Of a stretch of 61,396 nt of DNA, positions 3,908 through 44,151 are shown piece by piece. The stretch lies in NCBI GenBank assembly GCA_020852815.1, contig JADZAN010000017.1, positions 1 through 61,396 of the forward strand, written 5' to 3'. Source of the DNA: Gemmatimonadaceae bacterium. GTDB lineage: Bacteria > Gemmatimonadota > Gemmatimonadetes > Gemmatimonadales > Gemmatimonadaceae. Numbering within the stretch: the stretch's first letter is position 1; each line of letters begins with the position of its first letter. The position numbers and the translations under genes are program-made. Under the pieces are notes generated by a model. That model was given only the letters and a program-made list of their open reading frames with translations, had not been told where the DNA came from and did not search any database.

Positions 3908-6900
3908 ATGGGCACTTCGGTGGGCGAGGACGGCTTCGCGCGCTACTCCGCGCGCGTGGACAAGCTCCAGCAAGACCTCGTCGCCGCCAAGCGCGACGGC
4001 GACATCGTCAACGAGATCGACACGCTGCTGGCGATCGGTGATGCCGCGCTGGAGCGCGACCCCGCCCTGGCGATGATGCACTACCGCCTGGCCGAGCGCC
4101 AATGTCGCGGCGAGGGCCCCCGCCTGCACGCGGCGATCGGCGGGCAGGGGCGCGTGCTGCGGCGCGGAAAGCAGCTCCCCGAAGCAATCGAGCACTTCCA
4201 GCGGGCCGTGGCAGCCGCCGAACGCGCCGGTAATCGCGTGGCGCAGGTACTCTGGATGGTGCGACGCGCCGCTGCGCTCCGCGCCGGGGGTGACGCCGAG
4301 GCGGGAGGGGCGCTGGCGCGTAAGGCGGAGGCGCTGCTGCGCTCTCCCTCATCAACCAATGGCCGGCGAGCGCGACTCGGCGCGGTGAACCTGTTCGACG
4401 CCGAGCAGGTCACGACGCTCGTGGAACTCGAGGGGGAACTCGGGCGCGATTGCGCCGCACGTGGCGACGAGGACGGCGCGGAGGATCACTATCGCAGCGC
4501 GTGGAGCCACGCGCAGTCGATGCAGCAATGGGATGCGGTCGACACCTGGGCGCGCAACACAGGGAATGCCTGCGCGCGCCGGCAGCGCTTCGGCGACGCA
4601 CTTGCCTGCTACGAAGCGGCGCTCGCCGCAGCGCGCCAGCTCGACGGCGACGACCATGTGACCGCGACGTTGCGCGCGCTGGCCAGCGCGTATCATGGAG
4701 CCGCGCGCTTCGAGGAGGGTGGGGCGCGGCTGGAGGCGCTGGCTGGCGAGCTGTCGGGGACGGCCCAGCTCACGGCGCTGGACGAGTCGCTGTCGCTCTA
4801 TGATCAGGGGCTGGCGGCAATCGATGGGATCCGCGTCGCCGACCGCATCGCCGAGTTGGGGAAGGGGAGGCCGTTCGCCGAACAGTTCGCGCGCCGGGTG
4901 CGGGAAACGCGCGCGAAGCTCGCTCGCCTTGGCACCATGCCGCCCAACACCGACGGTCCGTGTGCGCTCGATCTCTGGTTGCCGCACGTGATGGCGCGTG
5001 CGGTGGATGCGCGCGATGCCGATGGGGCGCTGGTGGCGGCGCACCTGGTGTGCGACGTGCGCCTGGCGCTCGCGCTGCGCGGTGGGCGGGAGTGGGCGCG
5101 CATGATTGGTGGTGACGTGTTGCAGCAGGCGGGGCTCGACCTGCGCGTGGTGAGCGACACGCTTGCCCTGCTGGTGGAGATGGACCGCAACGATGCGGCG
5201 AGCGACCTGCTACAGCGTTGGAAGGCGCCGGCCTTCTGCACGGCGACGCTGCACCGGTTGTTGGAGGCTCCCCCGGCGCACCCGGAGTTGGGTGCGGTGG
5301 CCGATGCGGCGCGCGCGCTGGCCCAGTCGGTCGACGCGATGGCCGGCGTGGCGCAGCCCGACTTCATCCGCGCCGTCAATGGCGTGCGGCGCTCGGCGTT
5401 GCAGCTGCGGGAGGCGGGCGAGCGCATCCGCGCGCGCGACCCGCTCCTGCACGCGCGCCTGGGATTTGGCGTGTATCCGCGCGACCTGGTCGACGCCCTC
5501 CCCATCGACGGCGGCGTGGCGATCGTCGACTTCCTGGTGGGGCGCGACGCGACCGACGGGGTGATCTACACGCGCGGTGCCGACGGCGTCGTGACCACGC
5601 TCCTGCATGCCCCCACCTTCACCGCCCGTGAGGCGCGCGCGCTCACCGAGTTGCAGCAGGCGGGCAACCTCTCCAACGCCCTTGGCGGGGCGCAGACCGA
5701 GGCGTTGCTCGACATCGCGAAGATCCTGCACGACCACTTCTTCTGCTTCCTCGCCCGCTCGCTCTCCGAGCGCGGCGTCACGCAGCTCATCCTCGTCCCC
5801 GACGTGCTCACGCGCGCCATTCCCTTGCATCTGGCGATGGTGTGCGGGAAGGAGGTCGCGATAACGGGGATCGACACGTCGGATGCCAACTTCCTGTGCG
5901 AAGTGATGCCGGTCGAGTACGCCCCCGCGGTGCAGGCGGTGGCCGCGTCGCAGGCGTTCGTGCGCCCGCGCGCCATTGGCGCCGTGGCTGGGTTTGCCGA
6001 TCCCAATGGCGACCTGGCAGGAGTACGCGCCGAGCTGGAGGCGTTTGGCGCACGGGCAACCGCCGGCGGCCACGCGGCGCGATGGTCGCTGGCGACGGGT
6101 GCCGAGATGACGCGCGAGGCGGTGAGCGAGGCCATCCGCACCGCCGACCTCGTTGTGCTGGGGACGCATGGGCACTTCGTGGCCGGCGACCTGCGCGCCT
6201 CGCACCTGGTGATGCACGACGCGCCGTGGTCGCTGGACGAGATGTTGCGCCTGCCGGCACTGGAGAAGCGCGCGCTCCTGGTCCTCATTGCCTGCGAAGC
6301 GGGCGCGGTGGCGCTCACGCCGGACGACGCGCTGTCGTGGGGCATTCCCGGGGCGCTGGTGAACGCAGGCGCGAGCGCTGTGCTGGCCAATCTCTGGCCG
6401 GTGGTCGACGTCACGGCGAACATCCTCCTCGACCGCTTCCTGGTGCACCTGGCGCACCGCGGATTTCGCCCGTCAGCTGCACTGTTCCGCGCTGTGCGCG
6501 ACCTGCGGCGCATGACGCACGACGAGGCGGTGGCCGCCTGCCGCCTGCACTACGATCGCCTCAAGGCGCACAAGGCGGCGCCCGAGGCGCTGGTGGGGGC
6601 GCGCACGCTGATGGACTGGGTCGATGACAGCGACTCGCCGACGCCGTTCGCGCACCCCTTCTTCTGGGGAGCGACGGCCATCTTCGGAAGCGGCTGGCAC
6701 CTCCCGGCAGGCGCCTGCGTCGGCGCCATGGACCGCGTGGTCGACAACGAGATGCGCCTGCGCTCGGCGGTGGAGGCGATGCGCTCTGGCAGGATGCGCG
6801 ACGCGCTGGACGACGCGACGGCGCTGGCGCAGCGTTCGGATGGCGTCACGCGCGCCCGCGCCTACGTCCTCATGGCCGACAGCATGCTGCAGGGGGCCGA

Positions 6901-7057
6901 CCTCACCGCGCACGCGCGCGTGTCGCGTCGCGCCGGGCGGCTCCTTGCGGCTGCCGGACGCATGGCGCGCGCCGAGGAGGACGACGAACTGTTGGAGTGG
7001 ATCAACACCCTGCAACGCTCCCTGGAGAGTGACGATGTGGAACCGTACGAGCGCTGA
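3908..7057 (+). CDS. TPR-CHAT caspase-like protease, partner of gasdermin
   Basis: A 1049-residue cytosolic protein. Residues ~20-450 are alpha-helical TPR-like repeats (for example GRVLRRGKQLPEAIEHFQRA and RRQRFGDALACYEAALAAA). Residues ~500-930 form a CHAT peptidase domain: catalytic His754 in VVLGTHGHF and Cys796 in LVLIACEAG, then PGALVNAGASAVLANLWPV and HPFFWGATAIFGSGW, all typical CHAT landmarks. About 110 helical residues follow. The ATG at 3908 is chosen over longer in-frame starts because GGAGG sits 5 bp upstream. Its last 23 bp overlap the gasdermin gene, so the two are translated together. By family precedent the TPR region senses a signal and the CHAT domain cleaves the partner; the signal is unknown. 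Confidence 0.88.
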   Translation: MGTSVGEDGFARYSARVDKLQQDLVAAKRDGDIVNEIDTLLAIGDAALERDPALAMMHYRLAERQCRGEGPRLHAAIGGQGRVLRRGKQLPEAIEHFQRAVAAAERAGNRVAQVLWMVRRAAALRAGGDAEAGGALARKAEALLRSPSSTNGRRARLGAVNLFDAEQVTTLVELEGELGRDCAARGDEDGAEDHYRSAWSHAQSMQQWDAVDTWARNTGNACARRQRFGDALACYEAALAAARQLDGDDHVTATLRALASAYHGAARFEEGGARLEALAGELSGTAQLTALDESLSLYDQGLAAIDGIRVADRIAELGKGRPFAEQFARRVRETRAKLARLGTMPPNTDGPCALDLWLPHVMARAVDARDADGALVAAHLVCDVRLALALRGGREWARMIGGDVLQQAGLDLRVVSDTLALLVEMDRNDAASDLLQRWKAPAFCTATLHRLLEAPPAHPELGAVADAARALAQSVDAMAGVAQPDFIRAVNGVRRSALQLREAGERIRARDPLLHARLGFGVYPRDLVDALPIDGGVAIVDFLVGRDATDGVIYTRGADGVVTTLLHAPTFTAREARALTELQQAGNLSNALGGAQTEALLDIAKILHDHFFCFLARSLSERGVTQLILVPDVLTRAIPLHLAMVCGKEVAITGIDTSDANFLCEVMPVEYAPAVQAVAASQAFVRPRAIGAVAGFADPNGDLAGVRAELEAFGARATAGGHAARWSLATGAEMTREAVSEAIRTADLVVLGTHGHFVAGDLRASHLVMHDAPWSLDEMLRLPALEKRALLVLIACEAGAVALTPDDALSWGIPGALVNAGASAVLANLWPVVDVTANILLDRFLVHLAHRGFRPSAALFRAVRDLRRMTHDEAVAACRLHYDRLKAHKAAPEALVGARTLMDWVDDSDSPTPFAHPFFWGATAIFGSGWHLPAGACVGAMDRVVDNEMRLRSAVEAMRSGRMRDALDDATALAQRSDGVTRARAYVLMADSMLQGADLTAHARVSRRAGRLLAAAGRMARAEEDDELLEWINTLQRSLESDDVEPYER

Positions 7058-7847
7058 CCCGCTGGCCCGCCTCCTCTTCGACAAGTACGACGTGCACGTG
7101 CTGAGCCGACCGCGTGCGGCGCTTCCCGTGCTCACCGTCTTTGCCGTGCGCGATGACAAGGTCTACCTGGGCGGAGCGCTGACGTCGCTGCTGCGCGTTC
7201 CCTTCGATCCGCCGGACATCACGAAGGGGGAACCGGTGCTCGACATCTCGACCACCGTCTCGAGCGCCACGTCGGGGAGTGGGGCGCTCAACTTCCTGAA
7301 GGGATTCCTGGCCACGATTGGGGGAGCGATCGGCGTCTCGATGGGGGCGGCCTTCGAGCGCACCGGGACGTCGGTACTCAAGTTCCGCTTCGACGGCTGC
7401 ACGCTCGACTCGGTGACCGATGCCTTTGACCTCGAGAACCGGCTGGCCGACCTCGACTTCGACCGCGCGAAGTCGGCGATGCGCGACGATGCGCGGTACT
7501 ACATCGCGCGCGGTGTGCATTCGTGCGCGTCGTTGACCTTCGAGGCGCTCGACAAGAAGTCAGCGAGCATCGACCTGCATGCCGACGTCGCCGCGATTGG
7601 TGATGCCAAGGGGGCGCTCTCGGTCAACAAGGACAAGACGATCACCGCGTCGAGCGCTGCGCCGCTGGCGTACGGCGTGGTGCTCAACGAGTTGGTGTAC
7701 GACGGCCGGCGCAAGCGGCTGGGGCTCAAGGAAGCGCGTGACTACGTGCACGTGATGGGGGCGGTGAAGCGGAAGATCGCGGCGGCGGAGGTGGGGGGTG
7801 AGAAGGGTGGGGTGTTGGAGGTGACCGAAGGCGTTTTGTCTGACTAG
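7035..7847 (+). CDS. Bacterial gasdermin-like pore-forming protein
   Basis: 270 residues, no signal peptide or Pfam-style enzyme motif. I recognise it from the overall pattern of bacterial gasdermins: an N-terminal segment (DPLARLLFDKY, VHVLSRPRAALPVLTVFAVRDD, LGGALTSLL), a Gly-rich helix-strand region at 81-107 (ALNFLKGFLATIGGAIG then VSMGAAFE), alternating strands 112-215 (VLKFRFDGCTLDSV, ARYYIARGVHSCASLTFEA, PLAYGVVLNELVY) and a short charged tail from ~225. The pairing with a CHAT protease is the classic bGSDM arrangement. The tail (VKRK at 244-247) is the likely inhibitory part removed by the protease. The first Cys is residue 122, so the usual N-terminal palmitoylation Cys is absent. 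GGAGAG at 7024-7029 supports the start. Assignment is by remembered pattern, not a search. Confidence 0.66.
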   Translation: MWNRTSADPLARLLFDKYDVHVLSRPRAALPVLTVFAVRDDKVYLGGALTSLLRVPFDPPDITKGEPVLDISTTVSSATSGSGALNFLKGFLATIGGAIGVSMGAAFERTGTSVLKFRFDGCTLDSVTDAFDLENRLADLDFDRAKSAMRDDARYYIARGVHSCASLTFEALDKKSASIDLHADVAAIGDAKGALSVNKDKTITASSAAPLAYGVVLNELVYDGRRKRLGLKEARDYVHVMGAVKRKIAAAEVGGEKGGVLEVTEGVLSD

Positions 7848-7860
7848 TCTGACCAGACTA
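7838..7860. promoter_or_regulatory. Toxin-antitoxin operator overlapping the gasdermin stop codon
   Basis: TAGTCTG (7845-7851) and CAGACTA (7854-7860) are perfect inverted arms around AC, and GTCTGAC occurs as a direct repeat at 7838-7844 and 7847-7853. The gasdermin stop TAG is the first three bases of the left arm. The antitoxin ATG is 10 bp downstream, so an autorepressing antitoxin bound here would cover its own promoter region or ribosome binding site. Confidence 0.55.
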
Positions 7861-7870
7861 CATTGAAGTC

Positions 7871-8158
7871 ATGGCAGACGAGTGCTCTCTTTACGACGCG
7901 AAAGCGAAGCTCTCGGCACTTGTTCGTCAGGTGCGGGAGGGACGGACGATCGTCATCACCGTTCATGGTGAACCGGCGGCGGAGCTTCGCCCCATCGAGC
8001 GAGGTGCGCGGAAGCAGTCACTCGCGGAGCGAGTGGAGGAACTGGAGTCCCGTGGAGAGCTGTCCGCGCCGACGCGCAGGTCCGGGGCGTCGGTCGCGTT
8101 GCGGCGGTTGGCTCGCCGCCCTGGGGCGCTGAAGCGCTTCCTCAAGGAACGCGAGTGA
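7871..8158 (+). CDS. Phd/YefM-type antitoxin
   Basis: 95 residues. The N-terminus (YDAKAKLSALVRQVREGRTIVITVHGEPAAELRPI) is the Phd/YefM DNA-binding fold: helix, helix, then the VxVHGxPxAxLxP strands. The C-terminal half is polar and basic, the usual disordered toxin-neutralising tail. It would dimerise on the inverted repeat just upstream and cap the PIN toxin. Its TGA overlaps the GTG of the toxin gene by 4 bp (GTGA), the normal coupled layout. The antitoxin looks intact although its toxin does not. Confidence 0.82.
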   Translation: MADECSLYDAKAKLSALVRQVREGRTIVITVHGEPAAELRPIERGARKQSLAERVEELESRGELSAPTRRSGASVALRRLARRPGALKRFLKERE

Positions 8159-9727: not shown

Positions 9728-10122
9728 CCATCGGATTGGACACGTCGCTCACGCTCCGGTTGCTCACCGGTGTGCCCGAGGCACAGGCCGATGTCGCGCG
9801 CCGGCTGGTCGCGTCGTCACCGTCGCCTGTCGCCATCTCCGACCTCGTGGTCGGGGAGACGTACCTTGCCCTGCGCCATCACTATGGCGTGCCGCATGGC
9901 GAGGCGACGCGCGTCCTGCACGCGCTACTCTCCGATCCGCGCATCAGGGGCACCGGCGTGGCGCGTTCCATTCTCGCCGACCCGGAGTCGCGACGCAGTG
10001 CCAAGTCGCAGCCCGGACTCATGGATCGGCTGATCCATGGCGACTATGATCGAGAGGGACTCGCGGTCGCGACCTTCGATCGTGCGCTCGGGCGACTCCA
10101 GGGCGCACAGCGACTCGGCTGA
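9724..10122 (+). CDS. PIN-domain toxin (VapC-like ribonuclease)
   Basis: 132 residues with a GTG start in a GTGA overlap with the antitoxin. PIN acidic residues are visible: Asp in IGLDTSLTLRLL, Glu in SDLVVGETYLAL, then an Asp pair in LMDRLIHGDYDREG and the final Asp in VATFDRALGRL. Such toxins are Mg-dependent endoribonucleases that usually cut tRNA or rRNA when the antitoxin is degraded. It ends 3 bp before the LOG gene, so read-through into that gene is possible. Confidence 0.85.
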   Translation: MTIGLDTSLTLRLLTGVPEAQADVARRLVASSPSPVAISDLVVGETYLALRHHYGVPHGEATRVLHALLSDPRIRGTGVARSILADPESRRSAKSQPGLMDRLIHGDYDREGLAVATFDRALGRLQGAQRLG

Positions 10123-10125
10123 CCC

Positions 10126-10911
10126 ATGTCTTCCCCACACGACTCCCGCCACATCGACCTCTCCTTCCTCGAGGGACCACGCTCCCGCTGGAAGGAACTC
10201 GGTTCGGTCTTCTCCATTGCCGGCGAGTTCATTCGCGGCTTCCGTGCGCTGCACTTCGTGGGTCCGTGCGTGACCTTCTTCGGCTCGGCGCGCTTCAAGG
10301 AAGACCATCCGTACTACAGCGCCGCACGCGAGCTGGCGCAACGCATCGGACGTGTAGGGTTCACGATCATGACCGGGGGCGGCCCCGGGATCATGGAGGC
10401 GGCCAATCGCGGGGCCCGGGATGTCGGTGCGCTCAGCATCGGCTGCGGGATCGTCCTTCCGCATGAACAAGCGCTCAACCCGTATTGCGACATTGCCCTC
10501 AACTTCAATCGCTTCTTCATCCGCAAGGTCCTCCTCCTCAAGTACAGCATCTGCTTCGTCGTGATGCCGGGCGGCGCGGGGACGCTCGACGAGCTGTTCG
10601 AGACCATCACGCTCATTCAGACGGGGAAGGTGGAGAACTTCCCCATCCTCCTGTACGGCAAGGAGTACTGGGGGCCTACGCTGGCGCAGATCGACCGGAT
10701 GGTGGCCGAGGGGACGCTCAAGCAGAAGGAGCTGTCGTTCGTCTTCGTGGCCGACAGCGTGGAGGAAGCGACGACGCTCCTGCAGGATCGCCTGGTGGCG
10801 ATGTGGCAGGAGCGTCAGAAGGGGCGCGAAGTGCCGCGGTGGTGGTTCCTCGAGGGGCGTCGCCCTACTTCGCAACCATCCGCACCAGCGGGTCAGCCCA
10901 CGAGAATATGA
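10126..10911 (+). CDS. LOG family protein (TIGR00730 Rossmann fold)
   Basis: 261 residues. Both family signatures are present: GGGPGIMEAANRGA and PGGAGTLDELFE. LOG proteins are cytokinin riboside 5'-monophosphate phosphoribohydrolases or nucleotide N-glycosidases; PGGxGTxxE holds the catalytic Glu and the GGGPGIM turn binds phosphate. This longer form, with an N-terminal extension and a conserved VGPCVTFFGSAR strand, is widespread in bacteria and may act in purine-nucleotide salvage rather than hormone synthesis. The last 47 bp overlap tail-to-tail with the large membrane-protein gene on the other strand. Confidence 0.88.
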   Translation: MSSPHDSRHIDLSFLEGPRSRWKELGSVFSIAGEFIRGFRALHFVGPCVTFFGSARFKEDHPYYSAARELAQRIGRVGFTIMTGGGPGIMEAANRGARDVGALSIGCGIVLPHEQALNPYCDIALNFNRFFIRKVLLLKYSICFVVMPGGAGTLDELFETITLIQTGKVENFPILLYGKEYWGPTLAQIDRMVAEGTLKQKELSFVFVADSVEEATTLLQDRLVAMWQERQKGREVPRWWFLEGRRPTSQPSAPAGQPTRI

Positions 10912-13900
10912 GCGTCCGCGCGCCCGGATACTCGGACACGGCGAGCGTGAGGAGCGGGACGGCGCCGAAGGTGATGACGTTGAGGACGAACGCGGTGTCC
11001 CACGTGAGCTTTCCCGGTGTAGTGCGCGACACTCGGCTCAGCATCTCGTTGCGATTCATGCGCACCATCACGAAGAAGACCGAGACGACCGTCCCCAGCA
11101 GGAGCGCGATGGCGTACATGTTGATGACGCTGTGCGGGACGTACGGATAGAGCATCCCGACGCTGACGAGGATGAGGAGCGAGGCAAAGAGGAAGAAGCA
11201 GAGCCCGCGCAGGTTGCGGAGGTAGGTGTCGACGAAGGCGATGATCTCGCACGCCAGGTACTCCTCCATCGAGGCCAGCGTGCGCGCCGTGGGAGGGGGG
11301 AGCGAGGAGGCACCGCCAGGTGCATCGCCGCGGCGGATGGTCCAGAGGTCGCGCGCCACTCGCAGCGACAAGGCCACGCTGGCCGACCCGCGCTGTTCGC
11401 GCTGCGAGACCTCCAGCACGCCGGGCGGGCTGACACTCGCGGCGTCACTCGCATCCTGGCGCACCCGCTCCCACAGCTCCACCACGTAGCGATCGGCGCC
11501 GTGATCGTCGCGCCGCATCCCCAGGAAGCCGACATCGGTAAGGCGGATGATGTCGATGGGGAGTCGCGCGAAGGCGTCGGCAATCGGCGTCCCCGCCATG
11601 ATGTCGAGGAAGCGCTCGAGGCCGTGCCAGGTGTGCACCAGGCGATAGATCGCCCACGACGACGAGACGAGGACGGCGACGAGCCCGACCCAGAGACTGG
11701 CGTCGAACCAGACGTCGGCGCCGCGCCCGCCGTGGGCCAGCGACTCCAGCGACGGCAACCGACGCCGTACGATGATCCAGATGGCGGTGAGTGCCGCCAG
11801 GATGATCCAGGCGACGTGCATGCTGGGGGCGAACCAGGCCAGGCCGCGCCGCGCCTCCACCGCCGATCGATAGGCGCGCCGCCAGATGGCGGGGCTGGTG
11901 CGCGTGTCCGCCAGGGTGCGCAACCCGTTCTCGATGGGGAGGAGCGCGTCCATGCCGCGCGCCTGTTGCAGCTGCCACCACGTCCAGATGGCAAAGGTGG
12001 CGCCGAGCAGGACGAGCGGGATGAGTGGTGACACGCCGCTCGCCAGATGCAAGGCGCGATACATCGACAGCGTCGCTTCGCTCCCGCCACGGCTGGCGAA
12101 GCGCAGCAGGTGCGCCGTGTAGGCGAGCGAGCTCACCACGAACAGCGCGCTCACCACAGAGACGATGAGGTCTCCGGCGCGCGCGATCAGCGGCGCCTCG
12201 CGGCGCTCGGTGCGCTGCCGGTACTCCCGCAGGTCGTCGCTGTCCTTCACGGCTGGTACCTCGCCGCTCAGGCGCGTGGATGCGCGCATCCGCTCCAGGA
12301 GCGAGCGGGCGCCGCCGCCGGGCGCCGCGGTTGCCGTCGGCCCGGTCGTTGCAACCGGCGGCGACGAGGCTGCAGGTGTCGCCGCCACTGGCACGGACGA
12401 CGCGTCGTCAGGCGCCGCGACGTCGCCAGGTGCCGCAGCACCGGCGTCCGGTGCGCCGGCCTCGCTCCCCCGCACCTTCTTGATCCTCGGAAAGAGAAGC
12501 CCGCCAATTCCATAGAACGCCAGCGACAAACCGAGGACGATCTCCAGCGCCGAGAGCGCGAGGACAATCATCACGGCGAGCGAGGGGAAGCCGCTGTACT
12601 CGTCGACCGAGGCCACCACGCGTCGCGCATCGACGGCTACGGAGAAGGGGAGATAGGTCGCGCTGAGCGAGATGATGAAGAGCCCCAGGTAGAGCGCCTC
12701 CTTGCTCGTCCGCGGTTGCGCCAACGCGTCGGGGACGATGAAGCCCGTGCTGAGGAGCCACTGGCGATCGAGCAGCGTGAGGATGGCGAAGACGGCGATG
12801 AGGATGGACGGGAGGAGCACGGCGACGGAGAGCATCGCGTCGTGCGTGAAGGAATGCTCGTGCAGGCGTGCGGGGATGCGCGCGCTGCGCGCCGTGTCGG
12901 AGGGGCCTACGTTGAGGTACGACTGCCACTGCGCCCCGGGCATCTGGTACGTGAGCGGATAGAAGCCCCCGCGCCCCACCACGGAGACCCAGATGGGCGG
13001 GATCGTCGTCCCGCGTCGCGTTCCCGCACGGATCGAATACTCCTCCTGGCGCTCGTGCAACCCCAGCCGCGTGACGGCCGCGTTGTACACGCCGATGGCG
13101 GCGGCGTTGGAGAAGGCCATCAGGTCGGTCATGCGCGTGTACGACGAGTCGTTCCCCGCCTTGGTGCTGCGCTCGGCCGACGACCAGAACTGGTTCTCCA
13201 ACGTCAGCGGATACGTGCTGAGGACGAGCGAACCGATGAGCGCATCGGAGTACTCGGGGCGCGCGAGCAGGACGTGCGCCTCGTAGTTCACGATGATCGC
13301 GTCGCGAAGGTGGCGCTTCACCTCGCGCGCCAGCATGAGCTTGTCGCGCACATCGGTGGCCTTCACGAGCACCACGCGAATGTCGTGTTCGTCGAGCGAC
13401 GTCATCAGGTGGTCGAGGACGACGTCGAGCGAGGGGATGCTCAAGGAGGAGGTAAGCGCCGGCGTCTCGCGCGGGCGCATTTTCTCGTCCAGCGACAGCT
13501 TGGTGCGCGGTGCGTCGGTGAGCGAGGGCAGGTTGGGCGAGGCTTCCAGCGCGGTCGGCGCCTTCTCGAATTCGCTGCGCAGCGAGGCGATGTTGAGCGG
13601 GAAGGGGACCGTGAGGTAGCTCGATTCTCCCGACGGCTTCGCCTCGTCCTCCCTGGTGGGCCGGCTCTCGCCAGCTGCACCGCTCCCCGCCTCGGACGTG
13701 CCGCACAGGCGCGCCTGCTGCCGATTGTTGGAGCGTCCTGAGTCCTTGCCCGTTGGCCGAACGGCGCCGTATGCCGTGCCCGACTCGGTGAGGACGGCGA
13801 CCTGGTCGGGGCGCACGCGCAACACGCGCACGAGCCGCGCCAGCACGTCGTCCATGGCGTTGTCCGGGTTCACCGTGGCGGAGAAGCGAATGCGGGCAAT

Positions 13901-35369: not shown

Positions 35370-36374
35370 ATGACGAACGAGAGACAGCCATCGCTCGAGC
35401 AGCGCGACCTCTCGTGGTCGCTCGACGATACCACGGTCGACGCGACGGTCCAGTTCGCGCGCGAGGGCGTGGACGCCACAGGTGCAGGCGTCGTCTTCAT
35501 TGGCGGGAGCGGCCCCACCGACCGTGACTGGAACACGCCGCTCCTGCCGGGGACGAACGGGAGCGCGCGGTTGCTCGCCGAGGTCCTGGCGCAGGAAGGC
35601 ATCACGTCCATCCGCTACGACAAGCGCGCCGCTGGGGTGCGTGCGCGCGAGAACATGCCGCGCCTGGTGGGGAAGGTGAGCATGCAGAGCCACCTGGACG
35701 AGTTGGCCGGTGCCGTGCGCGCGCTCGCCGCGCAGCCCGGCGTGCGCCGCGACCGGTTGTTTGCGGTGGCCAACAGCGAGGGGACGTTGCACGCGCTGCA
35801 CTATCAGCTGCAACGTCCGGAACTCTCACTGGCGGGACTCGTCCTCATCGCGCCACCGGGGAGGAGCGTGGGGGCGGTGGCGCGCGCGCAGATCGCGGCG
35901 CAGCTTGCCCCCGTCCCTGGCGGCGAGGCGATCCTCGCGATGTACGATGCAGCGATCGCGCGCTTCCTCGCGTCGGAGCCGGTCGCGCCCGACCCCGCAC
36001 TCCCGCCGGGGATCGCCGGGCTCGTGCAGGGGTTGGCCAGCCCGGCCAACCTCCCCTTCTCGCGCGAGTTGTGGCTGGCGGACTCGGCGCCGCTGCTACG
36101 CGACGTGAACGTCCCCGTCCTCGTCGTCATCGGTGAGAAGGACGTCCAGGTGGATGTGCGGGCCGATGGGGGACCATTGCAACTGGCGGCTGCCGGGCGG
36201 GAACAGGTGACGTTTGCCTTCCCGCCCGACGCCAACCACGTGCTCAAGCACGAAACGCGGCCGCGCGCCGAACTGACGGCGGAATCGGCCTTCAGCTACA
36301 ACGCCGCCGATGCCGTCCTCGACCCCGAGGGGGTGGCGACGATCGTCGCGTGGTTGCGACGGCACGTGGCGTAG
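35370..36374 (+). CDS. Alpha/beta hydrolase
   Basis: 334 residues. The fold is seen in VVFIGGSGPTDRDWN (oxyanion strand), SIRYDKRAAG, the nucleophile elbow VANSEGT (Ser in NSEG, a variant of GxSxG), VLVVIGEKDVQVD with the acid Asp and DANHVLK with the catalytic His. Length and the late Asp/His match dienelactone-hydrolase/esterase-type enzymes of the alpha/beta hydrolase clan with a cap. No signal peptide, so it is cytosolic. Substrate unknown. The start at 35370 replaces a long artefactual open frame that reads antisense through the LRR gene. Confidence 0.82.
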   Translation: MTNERQPSLEQRDLSWSLDDTTVDATVQFAREGVDATGAGVVFIGGSGPTDRDWNTPLLPGTNGSARLLAEVLAQEGITSIRYDKRAAGVRARENMPRLVGKVSMQSHLDELAGAVRALAAQPGVRRDRLFAVANSEGTLHALHYQLQRPELSLAGLVLIAPPGRSVGAVARAQIAAQLAPVPGGEAILAMYDAAIARFLASEPVAPDPALPPGIAGLVQGLASPANLPFSRELWLADSAPLLRDVNVPVLVVIGEKDVQVDVRADGGPLQLAAAGREQVTFAFPPDANHVLKHETRPRAELTAESAFSYNAADAVLDPEGVATIVAWLRRHVA

Positions 36375-36429
36375 CGTCGCGGGTCGTCGCGCGTCGTCGC
36401 AGCACGAACACCTTCGGTTGGCGCCGCGC

Positions 36430-37698
36430 TCACACCACGATGCGCGGCATCCCCATCCCGAGGTGCATCAGGACGTCGTACACCGAGACGCCGGCCGCCG
36501 TGGCCACCTGGTTGGGATGCACATCGGGGTGGTCTGGGCCAATGAGCGTCGCCACGTCCCCCACCGCCACCGTGGTCTCGCTCCCCAGGTTCACCACGCA
36601 GTGCGAGGCGCTCACCGCACCGATCACGGGATACGTCCTGTCGCCAATGAGGATGCGTGACCCCTTCACGGCGCCGCGTGGATAGCCGTCGGCGTGACCC
36701 ACGGGGATGGTGGCGGTCCACGTGGGCGATTCGGCGGTGAAGCGGCGCCCATAGCTCACCGAGTCACCCGGGCGCAGGCGCTCCACGCGCACCACGCGCG
36801 CGCGCACGGCCAGCGCCACCTGCAATGCGGCGATGCTCCGTTCGCGCCCGTCGTCCGTGGGGTAGCCGCCAAACAGTGAAATGCCGGGGCGCACGGCGTC
36901 GAGGAGCGTGTCGGCGTGGTTGAACACCGCGTGCGACGAGGCCGCGTGCAACGGGCCGCCGATCGTGACCCCCGCACTTCGCGCCTCGGCCGCGAGCGAC
37001 GTGAGCCGCCCCACCTGTTCCGTATCGAAGGCACGGTCCTCGGTGAGCTCGGTGAACATCCCGCGCAGCGTCACGCGCGGCGCCCCCGCCATCTCGCGCA
37101 TGATGGGAAGGGCGCGGTGATACGGCACCCCCATCCGGCTCATTCCTGTGTCGATGTAGAGCTGTGCCGTCGCCGCGCGACGGGCGCGCGCCGCCGCGCG
37201 GGCAACGCGCGCCGCGGCATCGGGGACGCAGAGACTGAGCGTCACTCCGCCGCGCACCAACGCCTCACCTTCGGTGTCGTCGAACAGCGCGAGGAGGAGA
37301 ATGGGTTTGCGAATGCCCGCCTCCCGCAGCGCGAGCGCCTCGCTCACTTTCACCACGCCAAAGCCCTGCACGCGAGCGTCGAGTTCCAGGATGCGCGCCA
37401 CCTCGCGCAGCCCCAGCCCGTAGCCGTTGTTCTTGATGACGGCGATGATCGGGCGCTCGCCCGCCAGACGCGACAACACGTCCACGTTGTGGCGCATGGC
37501 CGATGGCGTGACTTCGACCCACGGCTCGAAGCGCGCCGGCGCGACGATCGGTGCATGGTCGCGCGCCCCATGCATGTCGCCGTCGTCGCCCTCGCCGGCC
37601 TGGAGTGGCGACGCCAGCAGTGGCGAGGAAAGGAGAGGCGACGCGAGGAGCGGCGAGGCGCTGGCGGCGGCGAGAAAGCGGCGACGTGAAAGCGACAT
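36430..37698 (-). CDS. Tat-exported alanine-racemase-family PLP enzyme
   Basis: 422 residues. The N-terminus SLSRRRFLAAA is a twin-arginine signal followed by a hydrophobic stretch with repeated SPLLASPLL units. The PLP barrel has the Schiff-base Lys89 in VIKNNGYGLG (consensus KANAYGHG), and the C-terminal domain carries the second catalytic Tyr in DSVSYGRRF and the IPVGHADGYPRG loop. It interconverts L- and D-amino acids, here outside the cytoplasm, so it resembles exported broad-spectrum racemases rather than the housekeeping enzyme. The substrate could be Ala, Ser or others. Divergent from the DUF488 gene. Confidence 0.85.
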   Translation of the reverse strand: MSLSRRRFLAAASASPLLASPLLSSPLLASPLQAGEGDDGDMHGARDHAPIVAPARFEPWVEVTPSAMRHNVDVLSRLAGERPIIAVIKNNGYGLGLREVARILELDARVQGFGVVKVSEALALREAGIRKPILLLALFDDTEGEALVRGGVTLSLCVPDAAARVARAAARARRAATAQLYIDTGMSRMGVPYHRALPIMREMAGAPRVTLRGMFTELTEDRAFDTEQVGRLTSLAAEARSAGVTIGGPLHAASSHAVFNHADTLLDAVRPGISLFGGYPTDDGRERSIAALQVALAVRARVVRVERLRPGDSVSYGRRFTAESPTWTATIPVGHADGYPRGAVKGSRILIGDRTYPVIGAVSASHCVVNLGSETTVAVGDVATLIGPDHPDVHPNQVATAAGVSVYDVLMHLGMGMPRIVV

Positions 37699-37711
37699 GA
37701 ACGAGAACCGT

Positions 37712-37739
37712 CGGTAGGTTTGAAACAGGGATCCTACCG
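37712..37739. promoter_or_regulatory. Inverted repeat in divergent promoter region
   Basis: CGGTAGG (37712-37718) and CCTACCG (37733-37739) are perfect 7-bp arms 14 bp apart, between the starts of the racemase and DUF488 genes. It could be an operator for either or both. Confidence 0.4.
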
Positions 37740-37771
37740 CCAACCTCCCGCCGTCGCCATCCGGAGCGCGC

Positions 37772-38185
37772 ATGTCGATTCGCATCGTCCAACTGGGTAC
37801 GCCCCGCCATCCGGGCGAGGGGCTCCGCATCGGAACCGTTAGGCGCCCTCCGCGCGGCGTCCCCAAGGAGCGCTTCGCCGCCGAGAACTGGTACGACGTC
37901 TGGTTCCCCAACCTCGCACCGAGTCCCGAGACGATAAAGCTCGGGCTGTCGGCGAAGACGCCGGCCGAGTGGGGGCGCTTTACGCGACAGTACCGCGCCG
38001 AGATGAAAGAACCGTCGGCACGCCACGACCTGGAGCTCCTCGCCGCATTGTCGCACGTGACGAACCTCTCGGTGGGATGCTACTGCGACGACGAGGGGCA
38101 CTGCCACCGCTCGGTACTGCGGGAGCTGCTGCGGGATTGCGGTGCGGCGCTCGCGTCCGCGCCGCGAGCGTCGCCCACCGTGTGA
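37772..38185 (+). CDS. DUF488-family protein
   Basis: 137 residues. The family pattern is visible: IRIVQLGTPR at the N-terminus, RPPRGVPKERFAAENWYDVWFPNLAPS, YRAEMKEP and the Cys-rich SVGCYCDDEGHCHRSVLRELL at the end. DUF488 proteins are small cytosolic proteins of unknown biochemistry; the CxCxxxxxCHR segment suggests metal binding or redox chemistry. The stop codon lies inside a CRP-like palindrome. No operon partner is evident. Confidence 0.82.
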   Translation: MSIRIVQLGTPRHPGEGLRIGTVRRPPRGVPKERFAAENWYDVWFPNLAPSPETIKLGLSAKTPAEWGRFTRQYRAEMKEPSARHDLELLAALSHVTNLSVGCYCDDEGHCHRSVLRELLRDCGAALASAPRASPTV

Positions 38186-42022: not shown

Positions 42023-43624
42023 TCAGCCGCCGCCGAACGTCCTGGCCAGCGCCGTCGCCGAACGCGCCGCCAGCGCATAGATCGACAGCTGGGGGTTGGC
42101 GCCGACGCTCGTGGGGAAGAGCGATCCGTCGATCACCGAGACGTTGTCGACGTGGCGCAGGCGACCGAGCGAGTCGGTGACGCCGCGCCTGTCGTCGGCA
42201 CCCATCGCGCACCCACCCATCACGTGCGCGCTCACGAGCTTGGCCTGCGGGGAGCGCATGGTGAAGGCGGCGATCTGCGCCTTGGCGGCGGCCAGGGTGC
42301 GCGCTGGCGTGGCGCGCTCGTGGAACGGGATCACGAGCTGCGCTCCAGCGGCGAATTGCAGCTCGGCCATGACCCCCATCGCGCGGCGAGCGCCTTCCAT
42401 CAGGTACCGCGACACCGGGTAATCGAGCACGGGGGAGCCGTCGTCGCGCAGCTCGACCGTCCCCCCCACGCTTTCGGGGTGAAAGCCATCGCGCAACAGC
42501 GCCAGCACGACATGCGCGTGCCGCAGCCGCTTCATCACCGCGGCGTGCTCCTCGCCGATGCCGGTGACCGTCGACGCCGTCAGCACCGGGTGCAGCGGCG
42601 GCACCTCGAGCTTGAAGCCAGGACCGTCGGCGCTCCCCTCGTTGAAATGATCCGAGTACACCGACTGCGGCGCGCCGGCAAAAGCATCGACGGGCTCCGC
42701 AAAGCGGGCGAGCGAGATGGTGACCGGATGCAGGAAGGTGCGCGTGCCAATGAGGGCGTTGGGATCAGGGACTCGACTGCGGAGGAGGAGTGCCGGTGTG
42801 TTGATGGCGCCGCCCGACAGGACCACGTGCCGTACGCGGACGCGCGCTGCGTCGCGCCGGCGCTCGAAGCCATCGCTTCCCATGAGGGTCACGACGACTT
42901 CCTGCACGCGACTTCCCGCGAGGACCAGGCGTTCGGCCCGTGCATGATAAAGCAGCTCGGCGCCGCGGTCGAGCGCCGAGGGGAGCGTGGTCACCAGCAT
43001 CGACTGCTTGGCGTTGGTCGGGCACCCCATCCCGCAGTAGCCCAGGTTGTAGCATCCGCTCACGTTGCGCGGAATGACGTGCGGTGCAATGCCGAGTTTG
43101 GTGAGCGCGTCGGCCAGAAGCTGGTTGTTGCGGTTGGGAGGCATTCCCCATGGTGCAATGCTGAGGCGCCGCTCCATCTGCTCCCACCACGGCGTGAGCG
43201 CCTCGGTGGTGAGGTCGGTGAGGCCGAACCGTTCCTGCCAGTGCGCAAGCGTCGACGGCGGCGTGCGGAACGACGACGTCCAGTTGACCACCGTTGTCCC
43301 GCCCACGGTGCGCCCCTGCATGATGTTGATTCCCTTGTCCTTCGTCTTGCGCGACGCCGACTCCTGGTAGAGGGTGGGATAGGCCTCGGACTCGAGCATG
43401 CGGAAGTCGCGCGTGCTGCGCAGCCCTCCTTCCTCGATCAGGATCACCTTGAGCCCGGCGGCCGAGAGGATCTCGGCGGTCACGCCGCCCCCGGCACCCG
43501 TCCCGACGATTGCGACGTCGCCCTCGAAGGTCGAACCGTCGGCGAGCGTGGCGCCGTCGTGCACGCGCCATCCGCGGGCGATACCCTCGGCGATGGGATC
43601 TGGAAACGAGCGCTGCGTCGTCAT
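42023..43624 (-). CDS. GMC-family FAD-dependent oxidoreductase (sugar/polyol dehydrogenase)
   Basis: 533 residues. The FAD-binding Rossmann motif is VAIVGTGAGGGVTAE near residue 40; other GMC boxes are GRTVGGTTVVNW, VLSGGAINTPALLL, HVMGGCAMGADDRRGVT with the catalytic His and SVIDGSLFPTSVGANPQLSI. It is the large subunit of a gluconate/sorbose/fructose-type dehydrogenase. Its start overlaps the stop of the small subunit gene by 4 bp (ATGA), so the two proteins form one complex; the small subunit carries the export signal and could drag the large one through the Tat system. Confidence 0.9.
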   Translation of the reverse strand: MTTQRSFPDPIAEGIARGWRVHDGATLADGSTFEGDVAIVGTGAGGGVTAEILSAAGLKVILIEEGGLRSTRDFRMLESEAYPTLYQESASRKTKDKGINIMQGRTVGGTTVVNWTSSFRTPPSTLAHWQERFGLTDLTTEALTPWWEQMERRLSIAPWGMPPNRNNQLLADALTKLGIAPHVIPRNVSGCYNLGYCGMGCPTNAKQSMLVTTLPSALDRGAELLYHARAERLVLAGSRVQEVVVTLMGSDGFERRRDAARVRVRHVVLSGGAINTPALLLRSRVPDPNALIGTRTFLHPVTISLARFAEPVDAFAGAPQSVYSDHFNEGSADGPGFKLEVPPLHPVLTASTVTGIGEEHAAVMKRLRHAHVVLALLRDGFHPESVGGTVELRDDGSPVLDYPVSRYLMEGARRAMGVMAELQFAAGAQLVIPFHERATPARTLAAAKAQIAAFTMRSPQAKLVSAHVMGGCAMGADDRRGVTDSLGRLRHVDNVSVIDGSLFPTSVGANPQLSIYALAARSATALARTFGGG

Positions 43625-44151
43625 GCGGCGCTCGGCGTTAGGCGCGGCGGCCCCGGGTAGCCCGTCGCCTCCCAGTGTGCGGGGGTGGCGTACCACGCGG
43701 CAAAGGTGATGTCGTGCAGCGCCTGGTAGGCGCTCACCAGCATCGCCGTCCGCCCGTGGCGCCAACGGGCGAGAATCCGTGCAGCACGCGCGGCGTCGAT
43801 GCGACGCCACGGGAGCGCCGTCCCCGCCAGGAGCAACCGCACCGCTCCCCTATCGAGGAGGCAGAAGAACTGCTGCAGCTCCTCGCGCGCCGACGGCGAG
43901 AGTTGCGACACCGTGCGATTCACATCGTCCAGCAGCGTGTCCATCGTGGCGGTGGTCCACGAGCCTGCAGGGACCACCCCGTCGAGGAAGGCGGGGATGA
44001 CGGCGGCGAAGAGCGCGCGACCGGACGGGGAGAGACCGTTGCCGCCATCCTTGCAACTGCGCAGGCGCCAGGCTCCCCAGGCGCCGGCGACCAGCAGGGC
44101 TCCGCCGCCAATGGCGCCGGCCTTGATGAAGGTGCGTCGGGTGATGGGCAT
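43621..44151 (-). CDS. Gluconate 2-dehydrogenase subunit 3-like Tat protein
   Basis: 176 residues. The N-terminus ITRRTFIKAGAIGGGALLVAGA is a twin-arginine signal. The rest matches the small subunit of membrane-bound gluconate 2-dehydrogenase (GLSPSGRALFAAVIPAFLDG, TLLDDVNRTVSQLSPSAREELQQFFCLLD, FAAWYATPAHWEATGYPGPP). It escorts and anchors the GMC subunit at the periplasmic face. It starts 5 bp after the beta-galactosidase stop and overlaps the GMC gene, so the three form an operon. Confidence 0.88.
   Translation of the reverse strand: MPITRRTFIKAGAIGGGALLVAGAWGAWRLRSCKDGGNGLSPSGRALFAAVIPAFLDGVVPAGSWTTATMDTLLDDVNRTVSQLSPSAREELQQFFCLLDRGAVRLLLAGTALPWRRIDAARAARILARWRHGRTAMLVSAYQALHDITFAAWYATPAHWEATGYPGPPRLTPSAA

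Follow-up and report, generated by a model that had tools for sequence, protein, structure and literature searches.

Positions 36430-37698 of the window (the whole stretch of DNA analysed, 61,396 nucleotides of a Gemmatimonadaceae genome) encode a protein of the alanine racemase family with a twin-arginine leader, a member of a widespread and apparently unstudied lineage. Judged by sequence, it is a Tat-leader protein encoded alongside a second, leaderless alanine racemase (Alr), belonging to a separate lineage in which the PLP site is kept and the substrate side is rebuilt. From these features we infer export itself, the dimer, the activity, the substrate and the physiological role of the lineage protein. 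The explanation that we favour, at roughly even chances, is an exported Alr paralogue: carried by Tat as a PLP holoenzyme, it would serve as a periplasmic racemase or epimerase whose substrate differs from free alanine or extends beyond it. The features of the gene are as follows.

36430..37698, minus strand: putatively exported alanine-racemase-like PLP protein, 422 aa (Pfam Ala_racemase_N and Ala_racemase_C; TIGR00492)
36439..36813, minus strand: Ala_racemase_C domain, residues 296-420, with Tyr316, His335 and Ser363-Ala364-Ser365-His366
36859..37506, minus strand: Ala_racemase_N barrel domain, residues 65-280 (Pfam match)
37411..37434, minus strand: PLP-lysine motif KNNGYGLG, residues 89-96, in which Lys89 corresponds to Geobacillus stearothermophilus Lys39 (sequence and alignment)
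37594..37698, minus strand: twin-arginine leader, residues 1 to about 35 (sequence; RRx[FLVIMY] motif in the lineage)
37602..37658, minus strand: 15-bp (30-bp) tandem repeat coding SPLLA/SPLLS units (tandem repeat scan, TRF)

The reading frame runs on the minus strand from an ATG at 37698 (residue 1) to a stop codon at 36430-36432, and its 422-aa product begins MSLSRRRFL. Pfam scores are 157.8 bits for Ala_racemase_N (cut-off 24.1) and 102.9 bits for Ala_racemase_C (cut-off 25), and the protein passes the alr equivalog model TIGR00492 with margin (226.5 bits versus a cut-off of 168), as do its relatives L010, L046 and L029. The gene is under purifying selection, with dN/dS of about 0.16-0.2 against L010 and L011 at high dS (1.3-1.7). 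Its neighbours are an alpha/beta hydrolase gene that converges on it (35526-36374, plus strand) and a DUF488 gene that diverges from it (37772-38185, plus strand), so that no operon is apparent; promoter and terminator patterns were absent from 36300-37900, and at gathering scores Rfam matched nothing in the window. In the gap that separates the racemase gene from the DUF488 gene, a perfect 7-nt inverted pair (CGGTAGG/CCTACCG, 14 nt apart, 37712-37739) is possibly an operator, or chance. Elsewhere in the window, a GMC oxidoreductase (42023-43810, minus strand) adjoins a small Tat-leader protein (43621-44151, minus strand) that has no Pfam match at 0.001, a pair (42023-44151) that we take to resemble an exported GMC dehydrogenase with its small subunit.

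A sequence-only reading of this DNA had proposed an alanine-racemase-family protein with a twin-arginine signal, and the two Pfam domains, the TIGR00492 score and the RRxFL leader all agree with it. The leader, MSLSRRRFLAAASASPLLASPLLSSPLLASPLQA, contains the twin-arginine motif RRxFL (SRRRFL) and, after it, a stretch of moderate hydrophobicity, where 11-residue windows that start at residues 7-22 have Kyte-Doolittle means of 0.84 to 1.65. The hydrophobic segment of SPLL repeats described in that reading is real: TRF, with a default score threshold of 50, found 3.7 copies of a 15-bp unit (37602-37656, 75% matches, score 61) and 1.9 copies of a 30-bp unit (37602-37658, 85% matches, score 86), though the repeat is missing from L010 and L011, the two nearest relatives, and is no functional signature of the lineage. 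The motif RRx[FLVIMY] is found in the leader of 64/70 readable lineage members. The six exceptions carry RK (L042), RRGC (L063) or, in Balneolota, a single Arg (L062, L068, L069 and L081, the last with a leader truncated by the chosen start). The same genome encodes TatC (207.8 bits). Among 21 canonical Alrs, 4 have an RR or RK string of this type within 45 residues ahead of the lysine, and by eye no hydrophobic segment follows in any of them. A periplasmic location of the 422-aa protein is therefore predicted, and is well supported by these leader comparisons. A non-functional leader that would leave the protein in the cytosol, or a gene that is a decaying duplicate, is very improbable: four prolines of the repeat interrupt the query leader and the four Balneolota members have a single Arg, but the leader motif is kept across several phyla, selection is purifying, and the full-length protein gives a confidently folded AlphaFold2 monomer model (from 55 lineage sequences; pLDDT 90.9, pTM 0.85), with low confidence at residues 22-39, the leader repeat.

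The genome (5.38 Mb, 47 contigs) has two matches to Ala_racemase_C, the window copy and one on contig G000:C10. The latter is an ordinary leaderless Alr of 360 aa with the motif KADAYGLG (G000:C10:204763-205803), 34% identical to the window protein. The sequence-only reading had suggested looking for a second cytosolic alr, and had counted a cytosolic location or the status of only alanine racemase against itself; the second gene is there, and a cytosolic location is not borne out by the leader motif or by the presence of TatC. Across the phylum, a canonical Alr accompanies the exported copy in 37/39 genomes, this one included (38 were covered by one search and this genome separately; in G042, G054 and G060 the canonical Alr was recovered in pieces), so that supply of essential D-Ala is not the likely role of the exported copy. 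Only the exported copy and no other Alr was found in G059 and G127 (2/39 genomes).

The lineage ranges over Gemmatimonadota, Acidobacteriota, Bacteroidota, Ignavibacteriota and Balneolota. Within the phylum, 39/298 sampled genomes, this one included, match at E 4e-71 or better, and the next match lies at 3e-45. Sequence was taken from 32 of these (30 with KNN and 2 sister sequences with KAN, from G165 and G183), leaving 7 outside the set, and a 106-residue fragment in G294 lies outside the count. A scan of genome contigs with six peptide patterns, AVIKNNGY among them, yielded 47 loci with titles naming Gemmatimonadetes, Acidobacteria and relatives, Bacteroidetes and relatives, Ignavibacteria, Balneolaceae/Balneolales and one Phenylobacterium metagenome-assembled genome (MAG). 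The 71 lineage sequences compared below are the distinct cores from L009-L085, 30 by whole-protein similarity and 41 from the pattern scan. Identical cores (L039, L043, L044, L045, L052 and L082; L039 matches L014 of genome G265) and duplicate or canonical sequences (L001, L002, L007 and L008) were dropped, and incomplete members (L031, L053, L078, L081 and L085) enter the counts at their readable positions. P0002 and the 20 best-scoring loci of a canonical-Alr search make up the 21 canonical Alrs. A tblastn search for plasmid-borne relatives returned 370 records, all below 60% identity, and among the matches listed (40 of 370) the named features were alr, dadX or vanT. Within the titles and abstract beginnings of open-access articles on exported or Tat-linked alanine or amino-acid racemases or on Gemmatimonadetes, none concerns the lineage, and the examined part of a paper on D-amino acids in the Mariana Trench (PMC12363236) makes no mention of leaders. 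The RacX of a Flavobacteriales taxon is reportedly the subject of published work.

Phylogenetic trees place the window protein, as far as sequence can tell, in a lineage separate from canonical Alr that groups apart from the known broad-spectrum racemases (Bsr). In a tree of 55 lineage rows (16 of the 71 were omitted as incomplete or near-copies), all fall on one side of a branch supported at 100/99, and the 21 canonical Alrs of the same phylum are likewise united at 100/99. In a tree with six Bsr sequences, 24 chosen lineage rows group together at 100/100, as do the Bsr rows; an AU test does not formally reject joining the lineage with Bsr (p 0.054), and support for linking the lineage to canonical Alr is weak (85/70). 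The stem of the lineage measures 0.94 and 1.17 changes per column in the two trees, and that of the canonical Alrs 0.76 and 0.89. Two sister sequences, L132 and L133, from G165 and G183 of the same class, have the motif KANAYG, with a Tat leader readable in L132, and join the lineage at 100/98 (26 rows, tree with five Bsr rows). The only pseudomonadotal member, L066 from an uncultured Phenylobacterium MAG, groups among Acidobacteria in the trees and could reflect either a mis-binned contig or a transfer.

The active site retains its cofactor residues and differs in those that contact the substrate (G. stearothermophilus numbering unless stated; Tyr316 of the query is Tyr265, His335 is Tyr284, and Ser363-Ala364-Ser365-His366 are positions 311-314). 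The sequence-only reading had singled out an altered lysine motif, and this holds in part: KNNGYGLG is present and its Asn at position 40, after the PLP lysine, is distinctive, occurring in 71/71 lineage members (in the 41 from the scan partly by choice, since AVIKNNGY was among its patterns) versus 0/21 canonical Alrs (Ala40 in 21/21), but the LG ending is ordinary, because Leu45 is found in 21/21 canonical Alrs. Lys39, Arg136, His200 and Arg219 are kept in 71/71. Position 265 is Tyr in 58, Phe in 12 and a gap in 1, and the query keeps both this Tyr and Lys89. His166, found in 20/21 canonical Alrs, occurs in 0/71 lineage members (Thr 39, Met 12, Gly 11, Glu 5, other 4; Glu in the query), and Asn203, canonical in 20/21, is replaced by Ser (58), Pro (12) or Ala (1). 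Loop positions 170-171 are absent from 71/71, a gap that makes the lettering of residues 169-172 vary between alignments. Three residues found in 21/21 canonical Alrs are missing from every readable lineage member: Tyr284 (0/70; His 58, Arg 12, gap 1), Met312 (0/68; Ala 56, Ser 12) and Asp313 (0/68; Ser 56, Ala 12). Position 314 is His in 68, the rest being gap or X, and Tyr354 is kept in 55/67 readable members, the query included (Leu 12, gap 4).

According to the portions of the published accounts consulted, these changed positions fall on entryway or substrate contacts of Alr structures (PMC3245724, PMC4517790, PMC3485190). The inner and middle entryway comprises Tyr265', Tyr284', Tyr354, Ala172, Asp173, Arg290', Arg309 and Ile352, and the Met312' NH holds the carboxylate (PMC3245724, in part). 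Of these eight residues the query keeps Tyr265, Tyr354 and Arg290 and has lost Tyr284 (His), Arg309 (Ala) and Ile352 (Ser), with the Ala172/Asp173 loop (S. aureus numbering) shortened. Over the six alignable entryway positions, 53/71 lineage members keep 3, 5 keep 2 and 13 keep 0, versus 9/21 canonical Alrs that keep 4, 3 that keep 5 and 9 that keep 6; as canonical Alrs of the phylum themselves vary at 309 (Arg in 12/21) and 352 (Ile in 15/21), these two positions weigh less as differences. A hydrogen-bond network of His200, Arg219, His166 and Tyr265' has been described, together with, in a relative, an Asp that contacts the PLP lysine (PMC4517790, in part), and the loss of His166 leaves this network incomplete in 71/71. 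With cofactor residues kept and substrate-contact residues changed, the PLP half appears conserved and the substrate half rebuilt. The innermost pair, Tyr265/Tyr354, is said to set alanine specificity (PMC3485190, in part), and its retention in the query and most members fits alanine or another small substrate.

These residues bear on the simplest alternative, a plain alanine racemase moved to the periplasm, where it would interconvert L-Ala and D-Ala from wall turnover. The lineage resembles Alr/DadX (TIGR00492, PF01168 and PF00842) in both domains, the fold, the PLP lysine, Arg136, His200 and Arg219, and in most members Tyr265; the query passes TIGR00492 and retains Lys39, Arg136, Arg219, Tyr265 and Tyr354, and its model has the fold of Alr, the best match among the PDB chains aligned being S. 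lavendulae Alr (1vfh; Z 42.2, rmsd 2.1, 366 residues) and Bar and BsrV ranking 39 and 42 (Z 37.2 and 36.6), although a monomer model cannot show partner-subunit residues. The lineage differs from Alr/DadX in its Tat leader, Asn40 and separate clade, and in His166, Tyr284, Met312, Asp313 and the entry loop, changed in all readable members. The long lineage stem also counts against a plain Alr, though the canonical stem is long too. We regard this alternative as rather unlikely.

A special case of the favoured explanation would make the protein a counterpart of Bsr whose non-canonical D-amino acids, made outside the cell, would serve wall editing, signalling or catabolism, the first two being the roles suggested by the sequence-only reading. 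Like Bsr/Bar/Lyr (NF009879; Vibrio cholerae BsrV, Pseudomonas putida Alr and Proteus mirabilis Lyr), the lineage is an Alr paralogue with a shortened entry loop (71/71 and 6/6) and Arg267 (59/71 and 6/6), and known Bsr members have an export leader; the enzymes are described as periplasmic in V. cholerae and P. putida in the sections consulted of PMC7890096 and PMC6034422. A Bsr-type racemase annotated alr on a plasmid of Novosphingobium sp. EMRT-2 (L156, NZ_CP039697.1) has a twin-arginine leader, MQRRGFLKAGAGLAAFGAG, so a Tat leader occurs in the Bsr group too. The niche may be open in the phylum, as NF009879 found no match over its cut-off in 298 sampled genomes (limit 1e-80; the control genomes of that run were also silent, and P. 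mirabilis scored 461 bits in a separate search), and this genome has three YkuD (L,D-transpeptidase-type) genes. However, the query (P0001) scores 77.4 bits against NF009879, far from its cut-off of 434. The Bsr markers, an Asn next to Arg136 and a small residue in place of Tyr354 (PMC3485190, in part), read NNNNDD at 137 and TAPPAA at 354 in the six Bsr sequences; in the lineage, Asn/Asp137 occurs in 0/71 (Glu in 13, Met in the query) and Tyr354 is mostly kept. Conversely, His166, Tyr284 and Met312 are present in 6/6 Bsr and in no readable lineage member. Lys129 occurs in 0/21 canonical Alrs, so its loss, a Bsr trait, is not telling here. The short loop and Arg267 suggest a wider entrance reached by convergence or old kinship, and the absent Bsr markers together with the lost His166, Tyr284 and Met312 argue for another substrate. 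When the P. putida racemase was deleted, D-Lys disappeared from the medium and the D-Lys catabolic genes were affected, but peptidoglycan composition stayed the same under the conditions tested (PMC6034422, in part), which cautions against assuming wall editing. We regard a Bsr counterpart as quite unlikely.

The membrane serine racemase VanT also shares the Alr domain: vanT-G-Cterm is the second-best NCBIfam model for the query (201.7 bits) and the best for L029 (196.0 bits). The query lies far below the cut-off of 460, however, and has Tyr at residue 354 where VanTG has Asn. VanT presumably has a membrane domain, and the 422-aa protein has none.

Twelve members (L026-L030 and L032-L038) form a subclade that has Phe265, Arg284 and Leu354 in place of the three Tyr residues, and a possible lipobox after the Tat leader; by eye, TSGC/TSAC or SAC closes their leaders, a possible cleavage site of Tat lipoproteins. 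The lack of Tyr265 is at odds with two-base racemisation in these members. For the window protein the automatic name 'alanine racemase' looks doubtful on its residues, and the subclade without the catalytic Tyr makes even 'racemase' a presumptive term.

Neighbour clustering revealed no conserved partner gene near lineage loci, and the surroundings of the gene give no recurrent pointer to wall editing or signalling. Profiles of recurrent neighbours matched, over 62 lineage loci, class I/II aminotransferases (3), class V aminotransferases (4), APC permeases (6), serine hydrolases (13), M20 (3) and S9 (12) peptidases, D-cysteine-desulfhydrase-like genes (2) and FtsX-type ABC permeases (10), versus 0/20 each in canonical-alr control loci; because the profiles were seeded from lineage loci, some loci are near kin and the controls span 293 versus 800 kb, enrichment is not claimed. 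These counts omit L039, L044, L045 and L082 (the same proteins as L118, L123, L128 and L121) and L043 and L052 (identical cores). L042 is surrounded by an M20 peptidase, serine hydrolases and a D-cysteine-desulfhydrase-like gene. A serine-dehydratase pair lies beside L049, and a serine-specific role considered on this basis was rejected, the pair being confined to that one locus. In L077, two adjacent Tat-leader PLP aminotransferases (Aminotran_1_2; 10048-11208 and 11208-12392, minus strand) lie beside an APC amino-acid permease near the exported racemase; their best NCBIfam models are PRK09105 and then pyoverdine PtaA, both below cut-off. L070 and L061 have the same arrangement (three Acidobacteria in all). 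In L130 (Gemmatimonadota, G042), an amino-acid permease and a class-V aminotransferase with the Tat leader VNTSRRSFLRR (5098-6576 and 6609-7982, plus strand) are divergent from a Phe265-type exported racemase. The scattered amino-acid-related neighbours may be a hint that amino acids or peptides are turned over beyond the cytosol.

Another PLP reaction, such as decarboxylation, elimination, one-base epimerisation or transamination of an amino-acid-bearing compound, would suit the 12/71 members with Phe265 and Leu354 beside a kept Lys39, the His166-Arg219-Tyr265 network broken in 71/71, and the Tat-leader aminotransferases beside an amino-acid permease near L061, L070, L077 and L130. Against it, the query keeps Tyr265, as do 58/71 lineage members, both Alr domains are complete, and aminotransferase neighbours are not general (class I/II at 3/62 and class V at 4/62 loci). 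We consider such a reaction unlikely. The probabilities attached to the alternatives overlap with that of the favoured explanation and need not sum to one.

In the favoured explanation, a fold-III PLP enzyme would fold and bind PLP in the cytosol, and the finished holoenzyme would cross the inner membrane via Tat. PvdN and PtaA are a precedent for this mode of export only, with no homology claimed: both are described as folded PLP holoenzymes carried by Tat, with the cofactor bound before export (PMC6206403, in part), which makes Tat export of a folded holoenzyme the natural reading here. Their reactions, decarboxylating in PvdN and transaminating in PtaA, differ from the proposed one. In the periplasm, Lys89 and Tyr316 of the partner subunit would serve as the two bases of a racemase or epimerase, and the shortened loop with smaller or polar residues would widen the entrance to a substrate other or wider than free alanine. 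We take the PLP fold of PvdN and PtaA to differ from that of the lineage.

The sister pair L132/L133 keeps Ala40, Tyr284 and Lys129 and already lacks His166, the loop and Met312; provided that no change was reversed, this set suggests the order in which they arose. Asn40 and His284' are both missing from the pair, which suggests that these two residues may touch in the dimer. Extending the favoured explanation, we tentatively propose, as a possibility rated below even chances, that the cofactor half was kept and the substrate half rebuilt step by step for a compound newly used in the periplasm, be it a larger amino acid, a peptide or a stem peptide of the wall. Export, the shortened loop and loss of His166 and Met312 would have come first, then A40N with Y284H, and then, in one subclade, loss of the catalytic Tyr and of racemase chemistry.

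The automatic annotation 'alanine racemase' would place a wall-precursor enzyme outside the cell, and gene censuses that equate alr copies with D-alanine supply would also be affected. The lineage, its sister pair and the tyrosine-less subclade offer a natural series on how a two-base racemase shifts its substrate or reaction. If the favoured explanation is true, members of several phyla would process amino acids by PLP chemistry in the periplasm along a different route from that of the Bsr racemases of Vibrio and Pseudomonas.
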